From: Oscillospiraceae bacterium
Lineage (GTDB): Bacteria > Bacillota > Clostridia > Oscillospirales > Ruminococcaceae
Assembly: GCA_017460835.1 (NCBI GenBank)
Contig: JAFUAD010000056.1
Coordinates: forward strand, 1-55,956
Length of the DNA stretch: 55,956 nt
Reading direction: 5' to 3'
The position numbers and the translations under genes are program-made. The notes beneath the pieces were generated by a model that saw only the letters and a program-made list of their open reading frames with translations, did no database searches and was not told the origin of the DNA. Positions 8,738-55,956 of the stretch are shown piece after piece. The first letter of the stretch is position 1, and each line of letters starts with the position of its first letter.

Positions 8738-9571
8738 ATGCAGGGTTGGATTGACGGATTTCAGGAGTCGATCGAGTACATTGAGCAGAATCTTTCCGGA
8801 ATGCTGGAGATTGAGGAGATTGCAGCGAAGGCCGCACTTTCCCCGTTCTATTATCAGCGGATCTTCGGCGCGCTCTGCGGCATGACCGTCGGGGAGTACA
8901 TCCGTGCCCGGAGGATGACGCTTGCGGCACAGGAGCTCACCTGCTCTGACCGGAGAGTAATCGACATTGCCCTGAAGTACGGCTATGATTCCCCCGACAG
9001 CTTTGCGAAAGCCTTTCAGCGATTTCACGGCATCACCCCGACCGGGGCGAGGGAATCCGGCGCAAGCCTGCGGTCATTTGCTCCGCTGCACATCAAAATT
9101 ACATTGGAGGGCGGAACAATGCTCGATTACAAAATTGTGGAAAAGGCGCCGTTTACGGTCGTCGGCATCAAAAGACGGTTCAATTCCGAGACAAGCTACA
9201 CGGAGGTTCCGGCATTCTGGGGCGAGTGGGCGTCGGATATGAAGGGCTTAAAGGGGATGTTCGGCATCTGCTCGGACATGGACGGAAAGAACTTTGACTA
9301 CTGGATCGCGGATCTGTATCAGCCGTGGCTGGATATCCCGGCGGGCTGCGAGACATTTCAAATACCCGGCGGACTGTGGGCGGAGTTCCGGTGCAAGGGT
9401 CCCCTGCCGGAAAGCTTACAGAAGGTCAATACGCAGATCTGGTCGGAGTGGCTTCCCTCGTTGCAGGGCTATGCCTTAGCAGGCAATTACTCGCTGGAAT
9501 TCTATCTGCCGCCTGCGGAGGATCCCGCCGAGACCGTCAGCTACATCTGCATTCCCCTGAAAAAAATCTGA
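8738..9571 (+). CDS. AraC-family regulator with GyrI-like effector domain
   Basis: A 277-residue protein. Two helix-turn-helix motifs in the N-terminal 105 residues (LEIEEIAAKAALSPFYYQRI and VIDIALKYGYDSPDSFAKAF) are followed by RFHGITPTGARE, the usual AraC ending. Residues about 125-277 form a GyrI/SOUL-like effector-binding domain, as in Rob and related regulators of drug or stress response. ATG 8738 is used; GTG 8729 is an alternative with similar support. The MutS-like gene begins 11 bases after the stop, so the two are surely co-transcribed. Confidence 0.9.
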   Translation: MQGWIDGFQESIEYIEQNLSGMLEIEEIAAKAALSPFYYQRIFGALCGMTVGEYIRARRMTLAAQELTCSDRRVIDIALKYGYDSPDSFAKAFQRFHGITPTGARESGASLRSFAPLHIKITLEGGTMLDYKIVEKAPFTVVGIKRRFNSETSYTEVPAFWGEWASDMKGLKGMFGICSDMDGKNFDYWIADLYQPWLDIPAGCETFQIPGGLWAEFRCKGPLPESLQKVNTQIWSEWLPSLQGYALAGNYSLEFYLPPAEDPAETVSYICIPLKKI

Positions 9572-46902: not shown

Positions 46903-46964
46903 AGAATTTGCACGGGATCGTGCGAGAATCCTATACAATCCTATACATTGAGAAAGAAGTGTTC

Positions 46965-48164
46965 ATGTTGACCAAAATCACCATTTTCTCCGGCTTTCTC
47001 GGAGCCGGTAAAACGACCCTGATCAAAAAGCTCATTCAGGACGGCTACAAGGGCGAAAAGCTCGTGCTGATCGAAAACGAATTCGGTCAGATCGGCATTG
47101 ACGGCGGCTTCCTCAAGGATGCCGGCATCCAGATCAACGAAATGAACTCCGGCTGCATCTGCTGCTCGCTTGTCGGCGATTTCGGCAAGGCGCTGGTGCA
47201 GGTTCTGGAGGAGTATCAGCCCGACCGCATCCTGATCGAGCCCTCGGGCGTCGGCAAGCTGAGCGACGTCATCAACGCGGTGCGGAACATCCATGCACAC
47301 GATGTCGAGCTCGACGGCTTCACGACCGTGGTCGATGCGAAGAAATGCAAGATGTATCAAAAGAATTTCGGCGAATTCTTCAACAACCAGATCACCTATG
47401 CGAGCTGCCTGATTCTCAGCCACACCGCCGGCCTGACGCAGGAGCAGATCCAGGATGCCGTACAGCGCATCCGGAGCTTCAACCCCTCCGCCCCGATCGT
47501 CACGACCGAATGGGACGAGCTGACCGGCCAGCAGCTCATTGATGCCATGACGCAGAAAAACACGCTCGATGACGCGCTGAAGGAGCTGCTCGACGAAGCA
47601 AATCACCATCATCACCACCATCATCATGATGACGACGATGACGAACATGAGCACGAGCATCACCACCATCACCACGATCATGATGATGACGAGCATGAGC
47701 ATGAGCACGAGCATCACCAACATCACCATGATGACGATGACGAACACGAGCATGAGCATCACCACCATCATCACGATCATGATGATGACGATGACGAGCA
47801 TGAGCATCATCATCACCACGACCACGGCCCCGACTGCACCTGCGGCTGCCATGACCACGATCATGACCACGAGCACCACCATGCCGATGAAATCTTCACG
47901 AGCTGGGGCGTCGAGACGCCGAAAACCTTTACGGCGGACGAGATCACCGCGGCACTCCGCGCGCTGGACAATGAGGCGGAATACGGCATGATTCTCCGCG
48001 CAAAGGGCATTGTCGCGGGCGAGGACGGAAAGTGGATTCACTTTGACTATGTGCCGGGTGTACCGGATGTGCGCTACGGCAGCGCCGAGACAACCGGCAG
48101 ACTGTGCGTCATCGGCTCGGAGCTCCGCGAGGATGCGGTCGCAAAGCTGTTCGGCGTCGCGTAA
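46965..48164 (+). CDS. COG0523/CobW GTPase with giant His-rich metal loop
   Basis: A 399-residue G3E-family GTPase. The P-loop is GFLGAGKTT (10-18), the metal-binding CxCC is CICC (64-67, in NSGCICCSL), and the base-recognition region follows. Residues about 213-305 are almost entirely His, Asp and Glu, a far longer metal-binding loop than usual. The C-terminal CobW domain is intact. Members deliver Zn, Co or other metals to client enzymes; the His-rich loop favours Zn or Ni/Co storage and buffering. The ribosome binding site is weak (AGAAAG). The next gene encodes a second G3E-like protein, so they likely act together. Confidence 0.93.
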   Translation: MLTKITIFSGFLGAGKTTLIKKLIQDGYKGEKLVLIENEFGQIGIDGGFLKDAGIQINEMNSGCICCSLVGDFGKALVQVLEEYQPDRILIEPSGVGKLSDVINAVRNIHAHDVELDGFTTVVDAKKCKMYQKNFGEFFNNQITYASCLILSHTAGLTQEQIQDAVQRIRSFNPSAPIVTTEWDELTGQQLIDAMTQKNTLDDALKELLDEANHHHHHHHHDDDDDEHEHEHHHHHHDHDDDEHEHEHEHHQHHHDDDDEHEHEHHHHHHDHDDDDDEHEHHHHHDHGPDCTCGCHDHDHDHEHHHADEIFTSWGVETPKTFTADEITAALRALDNEAEYGMILRAKGIVAGEDGKWIHFDYVPGVPDVRYGSAETTGRLCVIGSELREDAVAKLFGVA

Positions 48165-48176
48165 GGAGGCAGAGCT

Positions 48177-49130
48177 ATGCCAAATCAGGACGATTTTATT
48201 CCCGTTTACCTGTTCACCGGCTTTCTGGAGGCAGGCAAAACGAAATTTGTGCAGGATGCGCTGGAGGACGAGCGCTTCCAGAACGGTGAGCGCACGCTGC
48301 TGCTGATCTGCGAGGAGGGCGAGAACGAGTACGATCTCAGCCGCCTCCCGCAGGATACCGTTTTTCCGCATGTCATCGAGGAAAAAGAGGAGCTGAATCC
48401 CGAAAACCTCGCCAATCTGCTGAAGCAGTACAACGCAGAGCGGGTCGTCATGGAATACAACGGCATGTGGCTGATCACCGATCTGTTCAATGCCCTGCCG
48501 GACGACTGGGCGGTGTATCAGGCGGTGTTTATCGCGGATGCCTCGACCTTCATGCAGTACAATACCAATATGCGCAGCCTTGTGGTCGATAAGATCAACG
48601 CCTGCGAAATGGTGTTCTTCAACCGCTTCACCGATGACATGACCGTCAAGGAGTTCCACCAGATCATCCGCGGTGTCAGCAGAAGAACCGATATTTACTA
48701 TGAATATCCGGACGGCAAGACGATGTTCGATGACATCGAGGACCCGCTGCCGTTCGATGTGAATGCCGCACAGATCAAGATCGAGGACCGCGATTATGCG
48801 CTCTGGTTCCGCGATCTGATGGAGAAGCCGGAGCAGTACGACGGCAAGGTCATGACCTTTAAGTGCATGGCCGTCCGGCAGCTCAATTTCCCGAAGAATA
48901 TGGTCGCGGTCGGCAGGCATATCATGACCTGCTGCGTCGAGGATATCCAGTTCTGCTGGCTCGGCGCGTTCTACAATCAGAAGTTCACGCCGCGCAAGGG
49001 GCAGTGGTACACCGTGACCGGAAAGATCGAGCTGAAGCGCAACCGCGACGGCTCCCCCGCCCCGATTTTACAGCTCTCGGATGTGCAGGACGCCGAGGCG
49101 CCCGCTCAGGAGGTCGCGACATTCTATTAA
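48177..49130 (+). CDS. G3E-like GTPase fused to TIGR03943/DUF1980-like domain
   Basis: A 317-residue protein. The N-terminus has a P-loop, GFLEAGKT (15-22), and a CobW-like GTPase fold to about residue 185, but the CxCC metal motif is missing. The C-terminal 120 residues (YDGKVMTFKCMAVRQLNF, MTCCVEDIQFCWLGAF, KGQWYTVTGKIELK) resemble the OB-like domain of TIGR03943/DUF1980 proteins, whose B. subtilis members (YcgQ) are under zinc control. A fusion of the two would tie them in one protein. AAGGAGG precedes ATG 48177, 13 bases after the CobW stop. Confidence 0.78.
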   Translation: MPNQDDFIPVYLFTGFLEAGKTKFVQDALEDERFQNGERTLLLICEEGENEYDLSRLPQDTVFPHVIEEKEELNPENLANLLKQYNAERVVMEYNGMWLITDLFNALPDDWAVYQAVFIADASTFMQYNTNMRSLVVDKINACEMVFFNRFTDDMTVKEFHQIIRGVSRRTDIYYEYPDGKTMFDDIEDPLPFDVNAAQIKIEDRDYALWFRDLMEKPEQYDGKVMTFKCMAVRQLNFPKNMVAVGRHIMTCCVEDIQFCWLGAFYNQKFTPRKGQWYTVTGKIELKRNRDGSPAPILQLSDVQDAEAPAQEVATFY

Positions 49131-49725: not shown

Positions 49726-49728
49726 CAA

Positions 49729-49766
49729 ACGACCCGTATCCCGACTGCGGATACGGGTCGTTCTTT
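49729..49766 (+). terminator. terminator of CobW-YgjP operon
   Basis: CGACCCGTATCC-CGACTGC-GGATACGGGTCG perfect 12-bp stem followed by TTCTTTG. Confidence 0.9.
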
Positions 49767-49840: not shown

Positions 49841-49869
49841 TTGACATCTTTTGGAAGATATGGTATAAT
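49841..49869 (+). promoter_or_regulatory. promoter of zinc-ribbon/TerY-like gene block
   Basis: TTGACA (49841-49846), 17 bp, TATAAT (49864-49869); full consensus. No other strong promoter or terminator is seen from here to the window end. Confidence 0.9.
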
Positions 49870-49953: not shown

Positions 49954-51075
49954 ATGGGCATTTACGGCATCTGCGCAAACTGCGGTGCAGACCTTGAGGA
50001 GAGTGCGCGCTTCTGTGTCATCTGCGGCACGCCGGTCTCCGCTCCGGCACCGGCACCCGCTCCCGCACCGATTCCCTTCCCGGCCGTCACGCCGGTATCC
50101 GCACCGGCTCCGGCTCCCGCACCCGCAGCGATTCCCTTCCCGGCTGTCACACCTGTGCCGGCTCCGGCGCCCGTACCGATCGCGCCGCCCGCACCGGCTC
50201 CTCTGCCGACCGTCGCGCCGTCCTTCTGCACGAGCTGCGGCGCAAAGCTGATGGAGGGCACTGCCTTCTGCGTGAGCTGCGGCGCGAGGGTTCAGAATGT
50301 TCCCGATCCTGCGTCGGCGCCTCTGCCGGCATCCGGCGGATTCTACGGCACACCCGCGCCTGCTCCGGCACCGGACGGGTTCTACGGCACGCCTGCTCCC
50401 GCATCAGACGGATTCTACGGCACGCCTGCTCCTGCTCCCGCACCGGACGGGTTCTACGGCACGCCTGCGCCCGCTCCCGCATCAGACGGGTTCTACGGGA
50501 CGCCTGCGCCTGCTCCTGCTCCGGCTGCACCCGCACCGGCTCCGGCACCCGGCGGATTCTACGATTCCCCCGCACCGACGGTTCCGGCGGCAGCATCCGG
50601 CGGGTTCTATGATACCCCCGCTGCACCGGTTAGCCCGGCCTCCGATATCCCGGCGGGCTTCTTCTCGGATACCCCCGCGCCGGCAGCACCCGCTGCTCCT
50701 GCGGCTCCGGGCGGCTTCTACGGGGATGCACCCGCGGCGCCTGCGGTTCCGGGCGGATTCTATGATGATACGCCCGCTCCGGCGGTTCCCGGCGGATTCT
50801 ATGACGATGCACCGGCACCGGCTCCCGCTGCGCCCGCTGCATCCGCTCCCGATGATTTTGACGATCTGCCCGCACCGGGCGGATTCTACGGCGCTTCTCC
50901 GGCACCGGCTCCTGCCCCCGCACCCGCTCCCGCGCCGGCTCCGGCACCTGCACCCGCACCGGCACCTGCGGCTCCTGCTCCGGCACCCGCGGCGCCCGCT
51001 CCTGCGGCAGAGGATCCGGATTCCGGACGGCATCAGAGCAGCCTGTTTATTCAGGCGGATGATTTTGATATTTAA
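49954..51075 (+). CDS. double zinc-ribbon, Pro/Ala-rich repeat protein
   Basis: A 373-residue protein. Two CxxC...CxxC zinc ribbons ([19 protein letters not shown] at the start and [19 protein letters not shown] near residue 95) are separated by a Pro/Ala spacer. The rest is low complexity: about ten repeats of a [20 protein letters not shown] unit. No TM or signal peptide is seen, so it is probably cytoplasmic. A flexible scaffold or a kinase substrate is plausible (inference). GAGGTAAGTAAA precedes ATG 49954. It is the first gene of the block that ends with phosphatase and kinase genes. Confidence 0.85.
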
Positions 51076-51117
51076 CGATTCTGCGCACCTCAATTTCATA
51101 ATAAAGGCGGCGATATC

Positions 51118-52920
51118 ATGAAGCTAATCCGGAGACTCATCCATGCTCTGGCTGTCGGCGCTTCCGCGCTGCTCCTGATGCAGGGTGCTGCGATCTCTGC
51201 ATCGGCTGCTCCGGCAGCCGCGACCACGACAACCATGCCCGCAACCACGGCGGCCCCGCCCCAGACCACACGTTCCGCCGAAGCGCAGGTTGTCTCCGTC
51301 TCCTCAGAGGAGTACCTGACCTTCCTTGACGACACCGAGCCGATGAAAAAGTATTACGATGAAATGGCGGCGCGCAGGGAGGTCTATGACGAGGAAACGG
51401 ACATGACGGCCTTCTTCGCGGAGGCACAGTACAAATTCCACGATGCCTTCGGCACGGCGCTCACCGACGAGATCGGCAAGGGCGTGATGATCACGGTTCT
51501 GATCGTGCTGATTCTGCTCTCGCTGCTCTGGGCGTGTACCGGTCATAAGACCTATCCGTTCTTTGCATCCCTGCTGATTTTCCTGCTGATGAACGGGCTG
51601 TCCATTGCCGAGCTGATCTGTGCCGCGACCGGCGCGGACACCAAGCTCTTTACGGCGGTTCCGATCTGGCTGAACACGGTCGTGTTCCTGCTCTCGGCCG
51701 GACTGATCTTCTTCTGCTTCAAGCGGCGGCGGTTCTCGGCATTCATCATGATGATGACCTGTACCCTCCCGCCGGTTCTGATCGCAGGCTGGTTCGTCCT
51801 CAGAGAGCGCTATGTCAATGCATACGCGGTCTGGCTCGGCTACCGCAAAACGCTGCTTTCCGGCGCCGACGCGGAAAATGCCGAGGCGACGCTGGCAATC
51901 CTGACCGTCATCCTGTTCGCATTCAGCATCGGCATTGCTGCGATCATCTCGCTGCTCGGCGCGAAATTCCGCAAGCCGTTCCTGATGATCGCCTCCTCGC
52001 TGAGCTGCGGCGTGTTTGCCGGCTATCTGCTCTCCTCGATGATTTCCAAATCCAGCAAAATTACCGTTCTGACCTGTCTGGCAATGGGACTGCTCGTGCT
52101 CGGCGGATTCCTCGTGCAGCTCTATATCGGCCGCGGATTCCTGGAGCGCAAAAAACAGCCTGCGCCTTCTCCGGTCGGCGGTGACGATCTGATTCAGACA
52201 GACGGTGACGATGCCCTGGATCCGTTCCCGCACTCCGATTTTGCGGTGCAGCCCGCACCGTTCCCGCAGCCTGATTTCGGGCAGCAGCCAGATTTCGCAC
52301 CGCAGCCTGATTTCGCGCAACAGTCCGGGTTCCCGCAGCAGCCTGATTTCGGGCAGCAGCCTGAATTTGCACCGCAGCCTGCACCGTTCCCGGAGCAGCA
52401 GCGGACACCGGCGCCTGTGCCTGAGATTCCGGCGCCTGCACCGGTACCGGTTCCCGATCTCCCGCTCCCCGCTGCTCCGCGCCCCGCATTCTGCACGAAC
52501 TGCGGCTCTCCGCTGGAGCCCGATGCAGTATTCTGCACAAACTGCGGCCTCCGCGCCGGCGCCGATGCGCCCGAGAGCTCCGCAGCGCAGATTCCGGAGA
52601 CGGAACCGTATGAGCCGGATCCCATCCGGGACGCCTTTACCGACCCCTTTACCGGCGAGGCCGAAAAGCCCGCTCCCGCGCCCGCGGAGCCCGCTCCCGA
52701 AGCAGAGTCCGCCGAGCGCCCCGCTGCCAATCAGGAATCCCGCCGCAGCCGCGAAGCTGCCGGGTCGCAGCAGACTGTGCGCGAGACCGAGCGCACGGGC
52801 GGCCCTGTGATTCACATGGGCGGCAAAAAGCCCGAGGAAACCGGCCTGAAGCTGCACTTTGAGAAAAAAGAGCAGAAAACCAGCACCGGCGACGATGTAT
52901 TCGACAAGGGCGACTTCTGA
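51118..52920 (+). CDS. multi-TM protein with cytoplasmic zinc ribbon
   Basis: A 600-residue protein. A signal-like TM (about 8-30) is followed by a Thr/Ala-rich outer segment of about 90 residues and about six TM helices (120-345). The C-terminal 250 residues are Pro/Gln-rich (repeats of QPDFGQQPDF) with a zinc ribbon CTNCGSPLEPDAVFCTNCG, then a charged tail. The ribbon closely resembles those of the upstream protein. Function unknown; the layout suggests a membrane sensor or anchor that presents a cytoplasmic ribbon to partner proteins. AAAGGCGGCG precedes ATG 51118. Confidence 0.82.
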   Translation: MKLIRRLIHALAVGASALLLMQGAAISASAAPAAATTTTMPATTAAPPQTTRSAEAQVVSVSSEEYLTFLDDTEPMKKYYDEMAARREVYDEETDMTAFFAEAQYKFHDAFGTALTDEIGKGVMITVLIVLILLSLLWACTGHKTYPFFASLLIFLLMNGLSIAELICAATGADTKLFTAVPIWLNTVVFLLSAGLIFFCFKRRRFSAFIMMMTCTLPPVLIAGWFVLRERYVNAYAVWLGYRKTLLSGADAENAEATLAILTVILFAFSIGIAAIISLLGAKFRKPFLMIASSLSCGVFAGYLLSSMISKSSKITVLTCLAMGLLVLGGFLVQLYIGRGFLERKKQPAPSPVGGDDLIQTDGDDALDPFPHSDFAVQPAPFPQPDFGQQPDFAPQPDFAQQSGFPQQPDFGQQPEFAPQPAPFPEQQRTPAPVPEIPAPAPVPVPDLPLPAAPRPAFCTNCGSPLEPDAVFCTNCGLRAGADAPESSAAQIPETEPYEPDPIRDAFTDPFTGEAEKPAPAPAEPAPEAESAERPAANQESRRSREAAGSQQTVRETERTGGPVIHMGGKKPEETGLKLHFEKKEQKTSTGDDVFDKGDF

Positions 52921-52992
52921 TTCCCACCCCAGTGCAAACCGGCACGCTGCCGGGAATTATATTAGAATATATGAATGAAAGGATCTGTTACA

Positions 52993-53679
52993 ATGGGAAG
53001 CAATTTCAAAGCGACATATAATGTCGATCTGGTATTCGTGATTGATGCAACCGGCAGTATGACCGACCTGCTGGATCTGGTGAAGACCAATGCGCTGAAT
53101 TTCTATCCGGATCTGATGCGCGTCATGGAGGAGAAGAAGAAGATCATTGATGCCCTGCGCATCAAGGTCGTCGCATTCCGCGATTATGTTGAGGACCGCG
53201 AGGACGCGATGCTCCGCACAAACTTCTTCAACCTCCCCGCGGATGACCAGATCTTCCGCGAGACCGTCAACTCGATCGAGGCCTTCGGCGGCGGCGACGA
53301 GCCGGAGGACGGCCTTGAGGCGCTGGCCTTCGCGATCCGCTCCAAGTGGTCGGACGGCGGTGTCAGACGCCGCCAGATCATCGTGGTCTGGTCCGATGCC
53401 TCCACGCATCCGATCGGCTACGCAAGAGGTGCATACAACTACCCGAAGACTATGGCGGAGAGCTTTGATGAGCTGACCAAGTGGTGGGGCGACAAGAAGG
53501 ACGGCGGCTATATGGAGGACAACGCCAAGCGCCTGATCATGTATACCCCCGATGTCCCCGGCTGGAGCGACATCACCAAAACATGGAACAACGTCATCCA
53601 CTTTATGTCTGAGGCGGGCAGAGGTCTGGAGGAAGCCGATTATCACCAGATCATCAATGCCATCGCCAACAGTATCTGA
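52993..53679 (+). CDS. TerY-like vWA domain protein
   Basis: A 228-residue protein that is almost entirely a von Willebrand A domain. The MIDAS metal site is D18-x-T20-x-S22 in FVIDATGSM, a Thr variant of the usual DxSxS, and GGGDEPEDGLEAL carries the later ligand region. The ending and size fit TerY-type vWA proteins, which in predicted TerY-P triads are paired with a PP2C phosphatase and a kinase, exactly the next two genes. AAAGGATC precedes ATG 52993; the in-frame ATG at 52975 is part of that region and is rejected. Only 3 bases separate its stop from the phosphatase start. Confidence 0.88.
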   Translation: MGSNFKATYNVDLVFVIDATGSMTDLLDLVKTNALNFYPDLMRVMEEKKKIIDALRIKVVAFRDYVEDREDAMLRTNFFNLPADDQIFRETVNSIEAFGGGDEPEDGLEALAFAIRSKWSDGGVRRRQIIVVWSDASTHPIGYARGAYNYPKTMAESFDELTKWWGDKKDGGYMEDNAKRLIMYTPDVPGWSDITKTWNNVIHFMSEAGRGLEEADYHQIINAIANSI

Positions 53680-53682
53680 GCC

Positions 53683-54690
53683 ATGGCGGTCATCAATCCT
53701 GCCCAGCAGGGCAGCTCGACCAATGCGCTGCCGGATCTCGTGATCTGTGCCTCCAAGGAGCGCATCAAGGGCGCGGGCGAGGACGCCTTTGCCCTGCAAT
53801 ATTCCGAAAGCAAGACCAATACCGGCTATATCGCCGTCTTTGACGGCTGCGGCGGCATGGGCGCACAGAAGTATCAGAAGGCCAAGAATCAGAGCGGCGC
53901 CCGGCTCGCCTCCAATATCACGGCCGATATCGTCGATCGCTTCTATTCCGCGCCGAACGACGGCTTCCACTTCGACGGCAAGGATGCGGAGCGGCTCGAG
54001 CAGAAGCTCAGGTCCGTGCTCCAGACCGTCAAGCAGGAGATCGGCGAGCACTCCTCGTTCGTGATCGGCGGCGACCTCTTCCGCGAGCTGCCGACCACTG
54101 CCAGCATCATTGTCTCGAAAACAGGCAATGACGGCAGCGTCTACTGCGAATACCTCTGGGCGGGCGATTCCAGAGGCTATATGCTCAACGGGGACGGCAT
54201 CTGCCAGATCACCGAGGATGACCTCGAAACCGAGGAGGATGCCTACTCGAACCTGCAAAGCGACGCGAGACTCTCCAATGTCGTGAATGCAGACAAGGCG
54301 TTCGTCATGCACGAAAAGGTCATCAAGCTGAATTCGCCGGTCATGCTGATTACGGCAACCGACGGCTGCTTCGGCTACCTGCGGACACCGATGCACTTCC
54401 AGCATCTGCTGCTCAATACGCTGATGCGCTCGACCAACGAGAAGGCGTGGGAGCAGAATCTGATCAACGAGCTCGACAAGATCGCCGGCGACGACTGCGC
54501 GATCGTCATCTCCATCTACGGCTGCGGCAGCTTCGAGGAGTGCAAGCGCATGTTCATGAAGCTCTACGGTATGCACAATACCAAGTATATCAAGCCGCTC
54601 GCTGCCGATGAAAGCGAGGAAGCCGCTGCCGCGCTCTGGGAGAAGTTCAAGCCGGCATATTACAGAGAATTTGTGCAGAAAAGACGGTGA
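53683..54690 (+). CDS. PP2C-like Ser/Thr phosphatase
   Basis: A 335-residue protein of the PPM/PP2C fold. Metal-binding Asp residues are D34 (GAGEDAFAL), D54 (VFDGCGGMG), D227 (ATDGCFGYL) and D270/D271 (AGDDCAIV); D162 is in WAGDSRGYML. VFDGCGGMG replaces the usual DGHGG, with Cys in place of His, as in several bacterial members. It should remove phosphate from targets of the kinase encoded next. A C-terminal extension of about 55 residues lies beyond the domain. Confidence 0.92.
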   Translation: MAVINPAQQGSSTNALPDLVICASKERIKGAGEDAFALQYSESKTNTGYIAVFDGCGGMGAQKYQKAKNQSGARLASNITADIVDRFYSAPNDGFHFDGKDAERLEQKLRSVLQTVKQEIGEHSSFVIGGDLFRELPTTASIIVSKTGNDGSVYCEYLWAGDSRGYMLNGDGICQITEDDLETEEDAYSNLQSDARLSNVVNADKAFVMHEKVIKLNSPVMLITATDGCFGYLRTPMHFQHLLLNTLMRSTNEKAWEQNLINELDKIAGDDCAIVISIYGCGSFEECKRMFMKLYGMHNTKYIKPLAADESEEAAAALWEKFKPAYYREFVQKRR

Positions 54691-54700
54691 TTTCTGAAAA

Positions 54701-55735
54701 ATGGCTTTGGTAATCGACAAAAGGCTGACTGAGGAGCATAAGCCGCAGGAGCAGCCGCCGGCAGAATTCCAGCCCTATAACATCGGCGACTATACCCTGA
54801 AGGCGCCGCTGACCAGCAACAAGAGCGGCTTCTCCAAATGGGGCTTCTGCTGGAAGGGCGATACGGAGTTTTTCATCAAGGAGTTTCTCTCGCCGGTCTA
54901 TCCGGATGACAGCGTGGAGCTGAATTCCGCGCTCCGCGAAAAGCGAATCGAGGAGTGCATCCACTGGTTTGAGCAGAAAAGCCACATCTATAATACGATC
55001 GTCGCGGCGCAGACCGGCAATCTGGTCGTTCCGGTCTCCTTTTTCAAGTTCAAAAGCCGGTTTTATCTCGTGACGCAGAAGGTCTCCGAGAATGCAATGG
55101 ATTTCGCCATCCTGAGCCGGTTCGATATGGAGCATAAGCTCATTGTCATGAAGGTGCTCGCAAACAGCTTCGCACGGCTCGCAGAGCACAATATCGTCCA
55201 CGCCGACGTCAAGCCGGATAACCTGCTGATCAAGCAGACAAACGGCGGCTTCTTCACAATGAAGATCATCGACTTCGACGCAAGCTATCTGGCGGATTTC
55301 CCGCCAGATCCCGACGAGATTCAGGGCGATACCGTCTATTATGCGCCGGAAACGCTGCTTTATATTATCGGGGAGTGCAATACGCTGACGCCGAAGGTCG
55401 ATGTGTTCGCGATGGGCATTATCTTCCACCAGCTTCTGACCGGTGCGATGCCGGTCATCAAGCCGGAATATGACTATATCTATGAGTCCATCCTGAGCGG
55501 AGACGAGCCCCGGCTCGATCCCTCGCTCCCGGAGCATTACCGCCGGCTTCTGAACGGCATGCTGCAAAAGGAGCCCGAGGACCGGTTCTCGATGCAGCAG
55601 GTGTTCGATATGCTGACGGACTTCCGGGAGCTGGACCGCGCAGATGCAGAGGCGGCCTCTGCCGCCGCCGCCCGAAAGGCGGATGCTCCGGCACAGGTCG
55701 GCTTCATCAGTGCGACCGATGACGATTTATGGTGA
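54701..55735 (+). CDS. divergent Ser/Thr protein kinase
   Basis: A 344-residue kinase without TM. The Lys of subdomain II is K60 (FFIKEF); the catalytic loop is HADVKPDN with D169, K171 and N174; the metal-binding DFG is DFD (191-193); VYYAPETL and DVFAMGIIFHQLLTG complete the lobe. The glycine-rich loop is poor (LTSNKSGFSKWG), and DFD replaces DFG, so it is divergent but probably active since all key residues are present. Homology and order match the kinase of TerY-P triads. Its start is 10 bases past the phosphatase stop. The C-terminus is short and Ala-rich. Confidence 0.9.
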   Translation: MALVIDKRLTEEHKPQEQPPAEFQPYNIGDYTLKAPLTSNKSGFSKWGFCWKGDTEFFIKEFLSPVYPDDSVELNSALREKRIEECIHWFEQKSHIYNTIVAAQTGNLVVPVSFFKFKSRFYLVTQKVSENAMDFAILSRFDMEHKLIVMKVLANSFARLAEHNIVHADVKPDNLLIKQTNGGFFTMKIIDFDASYLADFPPDPDEIQGDTVYYAPETLLYIIGECNTLTPKVDVFAMGIIFHQLLTGAMPVIKPEYDYIYESILSGDEPRLDPSLPEHYRRLLNGMLQKEPEDRFSMQQVFDMLTDFRELDRADAEAASAAAARKADAPAQVGFISATDDDLW

Positions 55736-55746
55736 GGTAAAAAAAC

Positions 55747-55956
55747 ATGTGGATATGCAGTAAATGTAAAAAAGGAAATCAGGATACGACCTCCGTATGC
55801 ACCTGCGGCGCACCGCGGATGTGGGTCTGCACGACCTGTGAGACCCTGAATCCGTATTCCGTCGGCATCTGCTCGATCTGCGGCGCAGCAAAGCCCGCGG
55901 CCTCGCAGCAGCAGCCGGTCACATGGGGCAAGGGCTTCAGCGGCTCGATGGTAACC
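55747..55956 (+). CDS. zinc-ribbon protein, N-terminal part
   Basis: The first 70 residues of a protein cut off by the window end. Three CxxC or CxC pairs in a row are seen (CSKCKKG, CTCG, CTTCE, CSICG), forming at least two zinc knuckles, then a Gln/Pro/Ala stretch. It starts 11 bases after the kinase stop and so extends the same block. It continues past the window; the rest cannot be described. Confidence 0.8.
   Translation, partial: MWICSKCKKGNQDTTSVCTCGAPRMWVCTTCETLNPYSVGICSICGAAKPAASQQQPVTWGKGFSGSMVT

Follow-up and report, generated by a model that had tools for sequence, protein, structure and literature searches.

The 55,956-base window analysed here is the complete contig C32 (JAFUAD010000056.1) of an Oscillospiraceae bacterium assembly (2.98 Mb, 88% complete) whose closest named relatives are metagenome-assembled genomes (MAGs) of Oscillospiraceae and Ruminococcus, several of them from sheep gut. 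Towards its end, six open reading frames (ORFs), recognised by ORF calls and Pfam, lie on the + strand downstream of one promoter (Table 1) and form an operon with a von Willebrand factor A (vWA) protein, a PP2C phosphatase and a Ser/Thr kinase at its core. Operons of this type occur in Ruminococcus-related gut bacteria, and we found that their kinase often ends like neighbours with which it shares no homology (zinc-ribbon or membrane proteins), in a short C-terminal tag with the core F-x-x-A-[G/D]-D-[L/F]. A previous sequence-only reading of the window had described six co-directional genes behind a single strong promoter, and three zinc-ribbon proteins around the triad, one of them in the membrane, and both descriptions were confirmed. 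Pfam assigned two Zn_Ribbon_1 domains to gene 1, one ribbon (residues 458-477) to gene 2 and Zn_ribbon_RanBP to gene 6; gene 2 has 6 to 8 transmembrane (TM) helices by two hydropathy settings, and no clear tag was seen at its C terminus, which ends in DDVFDKGDF. The triad matched VWA_4 (3e-9; Integrin_beta, at 8e-5, stayed under its cut-off), PP2C_2 (7e-6) and Pkinase (3e-27). The kinase had been called divergent, a description that had to be corrected: the active-site residues of both kinase and PP2C are conserved, and phosphorylation by the operon kinase is therefore likely to be real.

Table 1. Features of the operon region in the window
Feature	Position	Strand	Basis or remark
Hairpin with T-rich tail	49728..49762	+	Read directly; the scan for terminators omits it
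Sigma-70-type promoter, TTGACA-17-TATAAT, extended -10 TG	49841..49869	+	12/12 consensus positions
Gene 1: two zinc ribbons, Pro/Ala linker, C-terminal tag	49954..51075	+	Pfam, tag regular expression match
C-terminal tag of gene 1, including stop	51043..51075	+	Sole ADDFD-plus-stop match in own genome
Gene 2: multiple TM helices behind a signal-like N terminus, C-terminal-proximal zinc ribbon	51118..52920	+	Pfam, hydropathy
Terminator-like hairpin between gene 2 and vWA gene	52939..52953	+	Terminator scan
Gene 3: vWA (VWA_4, integrin-beta-I-like motifs)	52975..53679 (conserved start probably 52993)	+	
Gene 4: PP2C phosphatase, metal-ligand Asp residues conserved	53683..54690	+	
Gene 5: Ser/Thr kinase, flexible tail ending GFISATDDDLW (genus form of tag)	54701..55735	+	
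Gene 6 (truncated at the contig end): RanBP-type/double zinc ribbon	55747..55956	+	Homologues end in a C-terminal TM helix

The window vWA has one match in its own genome. Searched with a vWA profile and counting the own genome, matches were obtained in 6/30 genomes of the genus and 7/394 of the order (both at E 1e-12), 14/391 of the class (E 1e-30) and 1/398 of a phylum sample (E 1e-20); in one other family the figure was 4/21 (E 1e-30; own genome not counted). A single vWA sequence run against the family matched 11/197 genomes at E 0.001, mostly weakly. The distribution of the operon is patchy. Neighbourhoods were compared in 26 Clostridia loci, those remaining after removal of duplicates (L041-L045 and L053, which repeat L020, L022, L024, L023, L021 and L028), of a copy with core genes broken by frame changes (L028), of divergent forms with longer PP2C and kinase (L051, L088 and L090), of loci in which no vWA-PP2C-kinase set was found (L054 and L089) and of own-genome fragments (L099 and L100); L001-L019 and other short loci were left out of the neighbourhood counts, and ORFs came from an in-house heuristic, not a gene finder, which mis-called gene 1 of L022. 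The vWA gene was followed by PP2C in all 26 loci and PP2C directly by the kinase in 17; in the remaining loci, accessory genes intervene or the contig ends. A zinc-ribbon gene stood within three genes upstream of the vWA in 22/26 loci and within six downstream in 19/26, so that the co-occurrence of ribbon proteins and triad on which the sequence-only reading depended is seen in relatives. Zinc ribbons were present in 84 of 203 other operon genes vs 13 of 184 outside genes.

The tag was noticed in the first relatives compared, before class-level loci from other families were gathered. Kinases of these other families end in WFKPAGDL, WFSSAGDL, WFHHAGDL and the like, with same-operon proteins ending likewise, while the form in the genus of the window is F-x-x-A-T-[D/E]-D-D-L-W and the L025 kinase has WKKATFD. 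A regular expression (regex) for the tag matched 21/195 non-kinase operon genes and 0/140 outside genes; among 24 kinases, 17 matched strictly, five more as a variant and two not at all. Genes cut by contig ends were mostly excluded from the tag counts, the upstream-open gene-1 copies of L021 and L023 being kept; gene 1 of L022 also ends in the tag, although the ORF caller missed the gene. Because the regex was made after seeing the tails, a matrix was built from kinase tails only, with own locus and genus left out, and with it 15 of the 195 non-kinase operon genes scored higher than any of 144 outside genes (p 2.4e-4), whereas none did so in an internal control with the last 15 residues removed. 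When 15 whole genomes were searched for the DNA pattern F-x-x-A-G-D-L plus TRR, 21 matches were obtained, as compared to 0 in the reversed control, and 19 of them fell at the operon system, including a G810 kinase on a separate contig and a G886 contig overlap; of the other two, one precedes TGG, not a stop, and one ends a 59-residue ORF in G870. The ADDFD form seen in window gene 1 gave three matches in eight genomes, each of them closing gene 1. With the last ten residues set aside, comparison of 23 accessory proteins with 24 kinases yielded one weak BLAST match. Tags of accessory proteins scored 23.8 against the kinase tag of their own locus and 14.7 (standard deviation 2.9) against those of other loci (22 pairs, 15 loci; p 2e-4), in a test that does not control for phylogeny. 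The acidic position is D in 36/38 regex matches (the regex admits only D, N or E), and there is no conserved Ser or Thr in the core of the 38 tails; the tag is therefore not itself a fixed phosphosite.

The TM helices of 26 tagged non-kinase proteins (21 recognised by regex and five by eye) were predicted with a simple hydropathy window, and their number was even, zero included, in 25 of them. Among TM-bearing proteins, an even count was found in 13/14 tagged vs 24/115 untagged operon proteins (p 2e-7), and with the strict regex and four hydropathy thresholds the contrast gave p values from 3e-6 to 2e-4. Single-TM zinc-ribbon proteins numbered 0 tagged and 52 untagged at the main threshold, and 1 and 51 at the loosest. 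Because TM counts are even and single-TM ribbon proteins are untagged, the tag is placed on the cytosolic side of the membrane, and it probably lies in the cytosol. The typical membrane protein of the set exposes an N-terminal ribbon, a C-terminal tag or both to the cytosol, and some expose neither. In a scan of 20 proteins, several of which had no match, the outside parts showed BspA-type leucine-rich repeats, Ig-like Big_2, NPCBM, DUF5050 and copper-amine-oxidase-N domains. One protein of L084 (14257-15345) is composed of signal peptide, leucine-rich repeats, TM helix and tag, and from this architecture reads as a receptor without its kinase. Taken as a whole, these results leave us with very little doubt that the tag is shared, system-specific and cytosolic.

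A shared tag on the kinase and on unrelated ribbon and membrane proteins suggests a common receptor that gathers them in one complex, and we consider it probable that one receptor encoded in the operon uses the tag as a docking peptide. In 21 loci in which all three core proteins were compared, mean identity was 62% for the vWA, 40% for the kinase and 41% for PP2C; since a reader is expected in every locus and under strong constraint, the vWA, as the most conserved protein, is favoured. In the PDB, the vWA had matches at E up to 0.01 only to the I-like domains of integrins beta-8 and beta-6, which are weak (E 6e-4 to 6e-3) and align over the DxPE and TDxxxH loops. The metal-site set of the vWA is integrin-beta-I-like (D18/T20/S22, GGxDxPE and SDAxTH), and the residues typical of a metal-ion-dependent adhesion site (MIDAS), together with D102/P104/E105, were invariant in 30 aligned vWA sequences, from which a degenerate second vWA of L087 was left out. 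The ligand expected of an integrin beta I-like domain is an acidic residue in a short peptide, and integrins beta-6 and beta-8 bind RGDL-type peptides; the commonest form of the tag ends in AGDL. More generally, extended peptides are regarded as ligands of vWA metal sites, and for an actinobacterial kinase/PP2C/vWA set vWA peptide binding is proposed in the part of the source used here (PMC7159879).

Following these data, the operon may work as follows. On flexible linkers, the kinase and a variable complement of zinc-ribbon and membrane proteins carry the common tag, which one receptor would read as a docking peptide; this receptor would be the vWA, whose metal site would bind the acidic residue of the tag in much the way that integrins bind the RGD Asp. 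A surface cue would be sensed by those membrane proteins that have outside domains (leucine-rich repeats, Ig-like, carbohydrate-binding), docking would bring the kinase to them and PP2C would reset the signal. The parts of this proposal differ in strength. Surface sensing through a kinase/PP2C switch is slightly favoured by us, a membrane-linked phospho-signalling module organised around a cytosolic vWA, with the tag docking kinase and sensors, is evenly poised between right and wrong, and the vWA metal site as receptor is a serious candidate that falls just short of that balance. The most specific version, an intracellular bacterial counterpart of integrin-ligand recognition in which the vWA reads an (A)GD(L)-type tag and any such tail joins a shared kinase/phosphatase circuit, is put forward tentatively. 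A phospho-signalling module with a ribbon scaffold had already been proposed by the sequence-only reading; the recurring gene set and the conserved active sites agree with it, while the tag offers a more specific mechanism than a flexible scaffold.

Several observations weigh against this reading. Besides the calls made by eye and the missing phylogenetic control noted above, both the tag regex and the TM parity rule were fixed after seeing the data. The kinases of L027 and L050 lack a tag, a strictly tagged non-kinase protein occurs in only 15/26 loci (16 with L022), and no tag was found by regex in the divergent loci L051, L088 and L090, in 13 genes near a Calothrix vWA or in 14 genes near the triad of Herpetosiphon (Chloroflexota). 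The tag of the window genus is divergent and its kinase needs a looser pattern; window gene 1 passes the regex and has a matrix score of 5.0, which falls short of the 8.3 of the top outside gene and is on a par with the 5.1 of an operon gene without visible tag. Nor is the acidic residue absolute, being N in L049 and S in the kinase of L128, a phage-labelled faecal contig found later in which the order is PP2C-kinase-vWA and the kinase ends in KFKQAGSLF. The integrin matches, as said, are weak. An enrichment at the metal site of vWA positions that differ according to whether a locus is tagged was rejected as evidence: 5/11 such positions lay in loops (p 0.01 against all columns), and against conserved columns the enrichment was not significant (p 0.10).

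It should be considered that another protein may read the tag. A eukaryotic-style docking on the kinase or PP2C, with tagged proteins as substrates and the kinase tail as an autoinhibitory or dimerising copy, would suit the fact that the kinase is the commonest tagged protein (22/24, strict or variant), and an aromatic F/W followed by a hydrophobic end recalls hydrophobic-motif docking. Nevertheless, a protein that reads a fixed tag is expected to be under constraint, and both enzymes (40-41%) are less conserved than the vWA (62%), while the predominance of D at the acidic position suits a metal site better; we regard this docking as unlikely, if still deserving attention. A general factor outside the operon, such as a protease adaptor or a polar localiser, could instead recognise the tag as a sorting or degradation signal. 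Short hydrophobic C termini are common degrons and one tagged ORF, of 59 residues, lies on another contig in G870, but the tag is nearly confined to the system (19/21 matches, 15 genomes), it varies with its own locus, and no protease model was found in the 20 accessory proteins scanned, the operons not having been searched otherwise for proteases; this makes a sorting signal improbable. For a similarity that arose by chance, or because the tagged proteins share an ancestor, only paralogy of some accessory proteins within a locus, such as those at 9189 and 10051 of L084, speaks in its favour, and the near absence of homology outside the tag, the empty reversed control and the 0/140 outside genes largely refute it, so that we give it hardly any credence.

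The preferred reading of a signalling module has also to be weighed against defence, that is, a TerY-P-type anti-phage or conflict module with the membrane proteins as effectors. The patchy spread counted above agrees with this, as do an integrase upstream of the L027 operon and the best PADLOC model of the kinase (mad6, 1e-29), and vWA/PP2C/kinase sets are known in defence from the portions of two reports used here (PMC11090510, PMC10889362). However, no nuclease, toxin or pore domain was found in the 20 accessory proteins scanned, several of which had no Pfam match at all, and several look sensor-like. The PADLOC match is restricted to the kinase domain, and when the six window proteins were scanned only the kinase matched, with no complete defence system. 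We judge a defence role to be on the unlikely side, without dismissing it.

The sequence-only reading had further fitted the triad to TerY-P. This stood as far as gene order goes, given the adjacency of vWA, PP2C and kinase reported above, and failed for the vWA, which belongs to VWA_4 and not to PF00092. As a TerY it was rejected, hhalign giving probabilities of 16% and 11% against two Ter-plasmid vWAs, and profile comparison with the Ter-linked set gave 38% for PP2C and 87% for the kinase, a general kinase fold. By Pfam, neither TerY_C nor a zinc ribbon is fused to genes 3 or 5, while TerY_C was found in the control L129. The PADLOC TerY model was discarded as a test; its silence is uninformative because it also misses genuine TerY. 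The reported lack of TerD held, PF02342 being found in 0/1 own genome (88% complete) and 2/14 in the control rings, a search that did not extend to TerC and TerZ. Judged from these comparisons, the triad resembles TerY-P in parts and is not a member by its vWA.

The TerY-P of a Klebsiella pneumoniae plasmid (L129) likewise has vWA, PP2C and kinase side by side and metal-binding domains nearby, but there the TerY is a PF00092 protein with TerY_C, the locus includes a TerD gene, and the similarity of the vWA profiles is marginal. In CoCoNuT Type II/III-A, the TerY-P that accompanies McrBC-like systems combines vWA, PP2C and a Ser/Thr kinase with a fused zinc ribbon, according to the part of PMC11090510 used here; compared with that account, the ribbons of the window operon are on separate, often membrane, proteins and there is no nuclease domain in the 20 operon accessory proteins scanned. 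In the actinobacterial GAP1-N2 GTPase systems, too, PP2C and a standalone vWA are neighbours of an active kinase that has a zinc ribbon or TM helix; compared by description only, they differ in being GTPase-centred and actinobacterial, and the portion of PMC7159879 considered mentions no common C-terminal tag. The triad on the Herpetosiphon plasmid pHAU01 (L126) has a VWA_4-type vWA with 49% identity and the same gene order, but neither a tag by regex nor a zinc ribbon among 14 genes checked. In Escherichia coli, YegL-PphC-YegI (L101) are a vWA, a PP2C and a kinase encoded together; YegL and PphC come no closer than the Ter-linked proteins, their matches covering just 14 columns of the vWA and 16 of the PP2C profile, respectively, and YegI matches at 88% probability, as any kinase fold would. 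The likeness to the integrin beta I-like domain lies in aligned DxTxSM/DxSxSM, GxxDxPE and TDxxxH motifs; the operon vWA is nonetheless bacterial, cytosolic by prediction and without an alpha subunit, the similarity is weak (E 6e-4 at best) and its ligand role is our proposal.

Regarding the transcription unit, the intergenic gaps from gene 1 to gene 6 are 42, 54 (72 with the later vWA start), 3, 10 and 11 bases. Promoter-like sites in the region numbered 3 vs 2.2 expected in shuffles, the remaining two reaching only 9/12 positions. Hairpin 49728-49762 probably terminates the upstream unit. Because of hairpin 52939-52953, a partial stop of transcription is possible between gene 2 and the vWA gene, which weakens the case for a single transcript; terminator-like sites in the region numbered 8 vs 4.8 expected by chance. 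Since the window is the whole contig, gene 6 is truncated by the assembly. The best match in the own genome to the gene that comes next in L020 lies 300 bases from the end of contig C35, and the reading frame before it has an end resembling the C-terminal TM helix of the gene 6 family; for these reasons the operon probably runs on into C35. No match was obtained for the first ~100 bases of this contig, and a weaker second match to the L020 gene (43%) lies on contig C82. Directly upstream of a YgjP-like peptidase gene and the operon, the window encodes two CobW/G3E-type GTPases by Pfam (46941-48164 and 48177-49130), the first with long His/Asp/Glu-rich stretches; in L020 a heavy-metal P-type ATPase gene lies downstream of the operon, and C35 has an ORF with a similar start.

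Other features were recorded in passing. The linker of window gene 1 carries 12 GFYG/GFYD/GFFS motifs and the L020 copy repeats GGYYD, repeats that might offer multivalent docking. An invariant W-x6-Y motif (W319, Y326), perhaps a second docking element, closes the PP2C proteins, and in the kinases of L080, L084 and L087 about 130 additional residues separate the kinase domain from the tag. The second vWA of L087 (7881-8573), beside the first, has a changed MIDAS (D to G, S to D), like a degenerate duplicate. In L028 (4881-7619; the L053 record), from a Ruminococcus MAG, the whole triad is frame-broken downstream of an integrase-like frame, reflecting either decay of the module or an assembly error. 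The divergent sister form with longer PP2C and kinase (L088, 7110-13317 as oriented; L051; L090) has, in L088, a different C-terminal segment common to kinase and zinc-ribbon protein, QFxRxxMxxxQKLAK. The tagged 59-residue ORF of G870 (L119, contig C72, 1345-1524) has a start resembling a cut helix-turn-helix gene and a lipoprotein-like gene after it. A viral origin was rejected: four loci lay in viral contigs, all only 27-28% identical, and 1 of 50,697 phage records matched, the faecal contig L128, at 56% identity. Eight plasmid records had a match, the best at 49%.

In full-text literature searches, with most subscription papers outside their scope, no listed entry pointed to a description of the operon or its C-terminal tag. 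As a kind, the vWA/PP2C/kinase triad is already known; what is new in this operon is its tag, together with its membrane partners. Triads of this sort have long been predicted in bacteria and, to our knowledge, how they find their partners has been an open question. The tag would provide a concrete short docking code, and a simple search for it can reveal partners, including leucine-rich-repeat receptor-like proteins of gut bacteria. Should its reader indeed be the vWA metal site, the extracellular logic of animal integrins would be at work inside bacteria, and surface receptors could swap freely between genomes because only their last eight or so residues would need to be kept.

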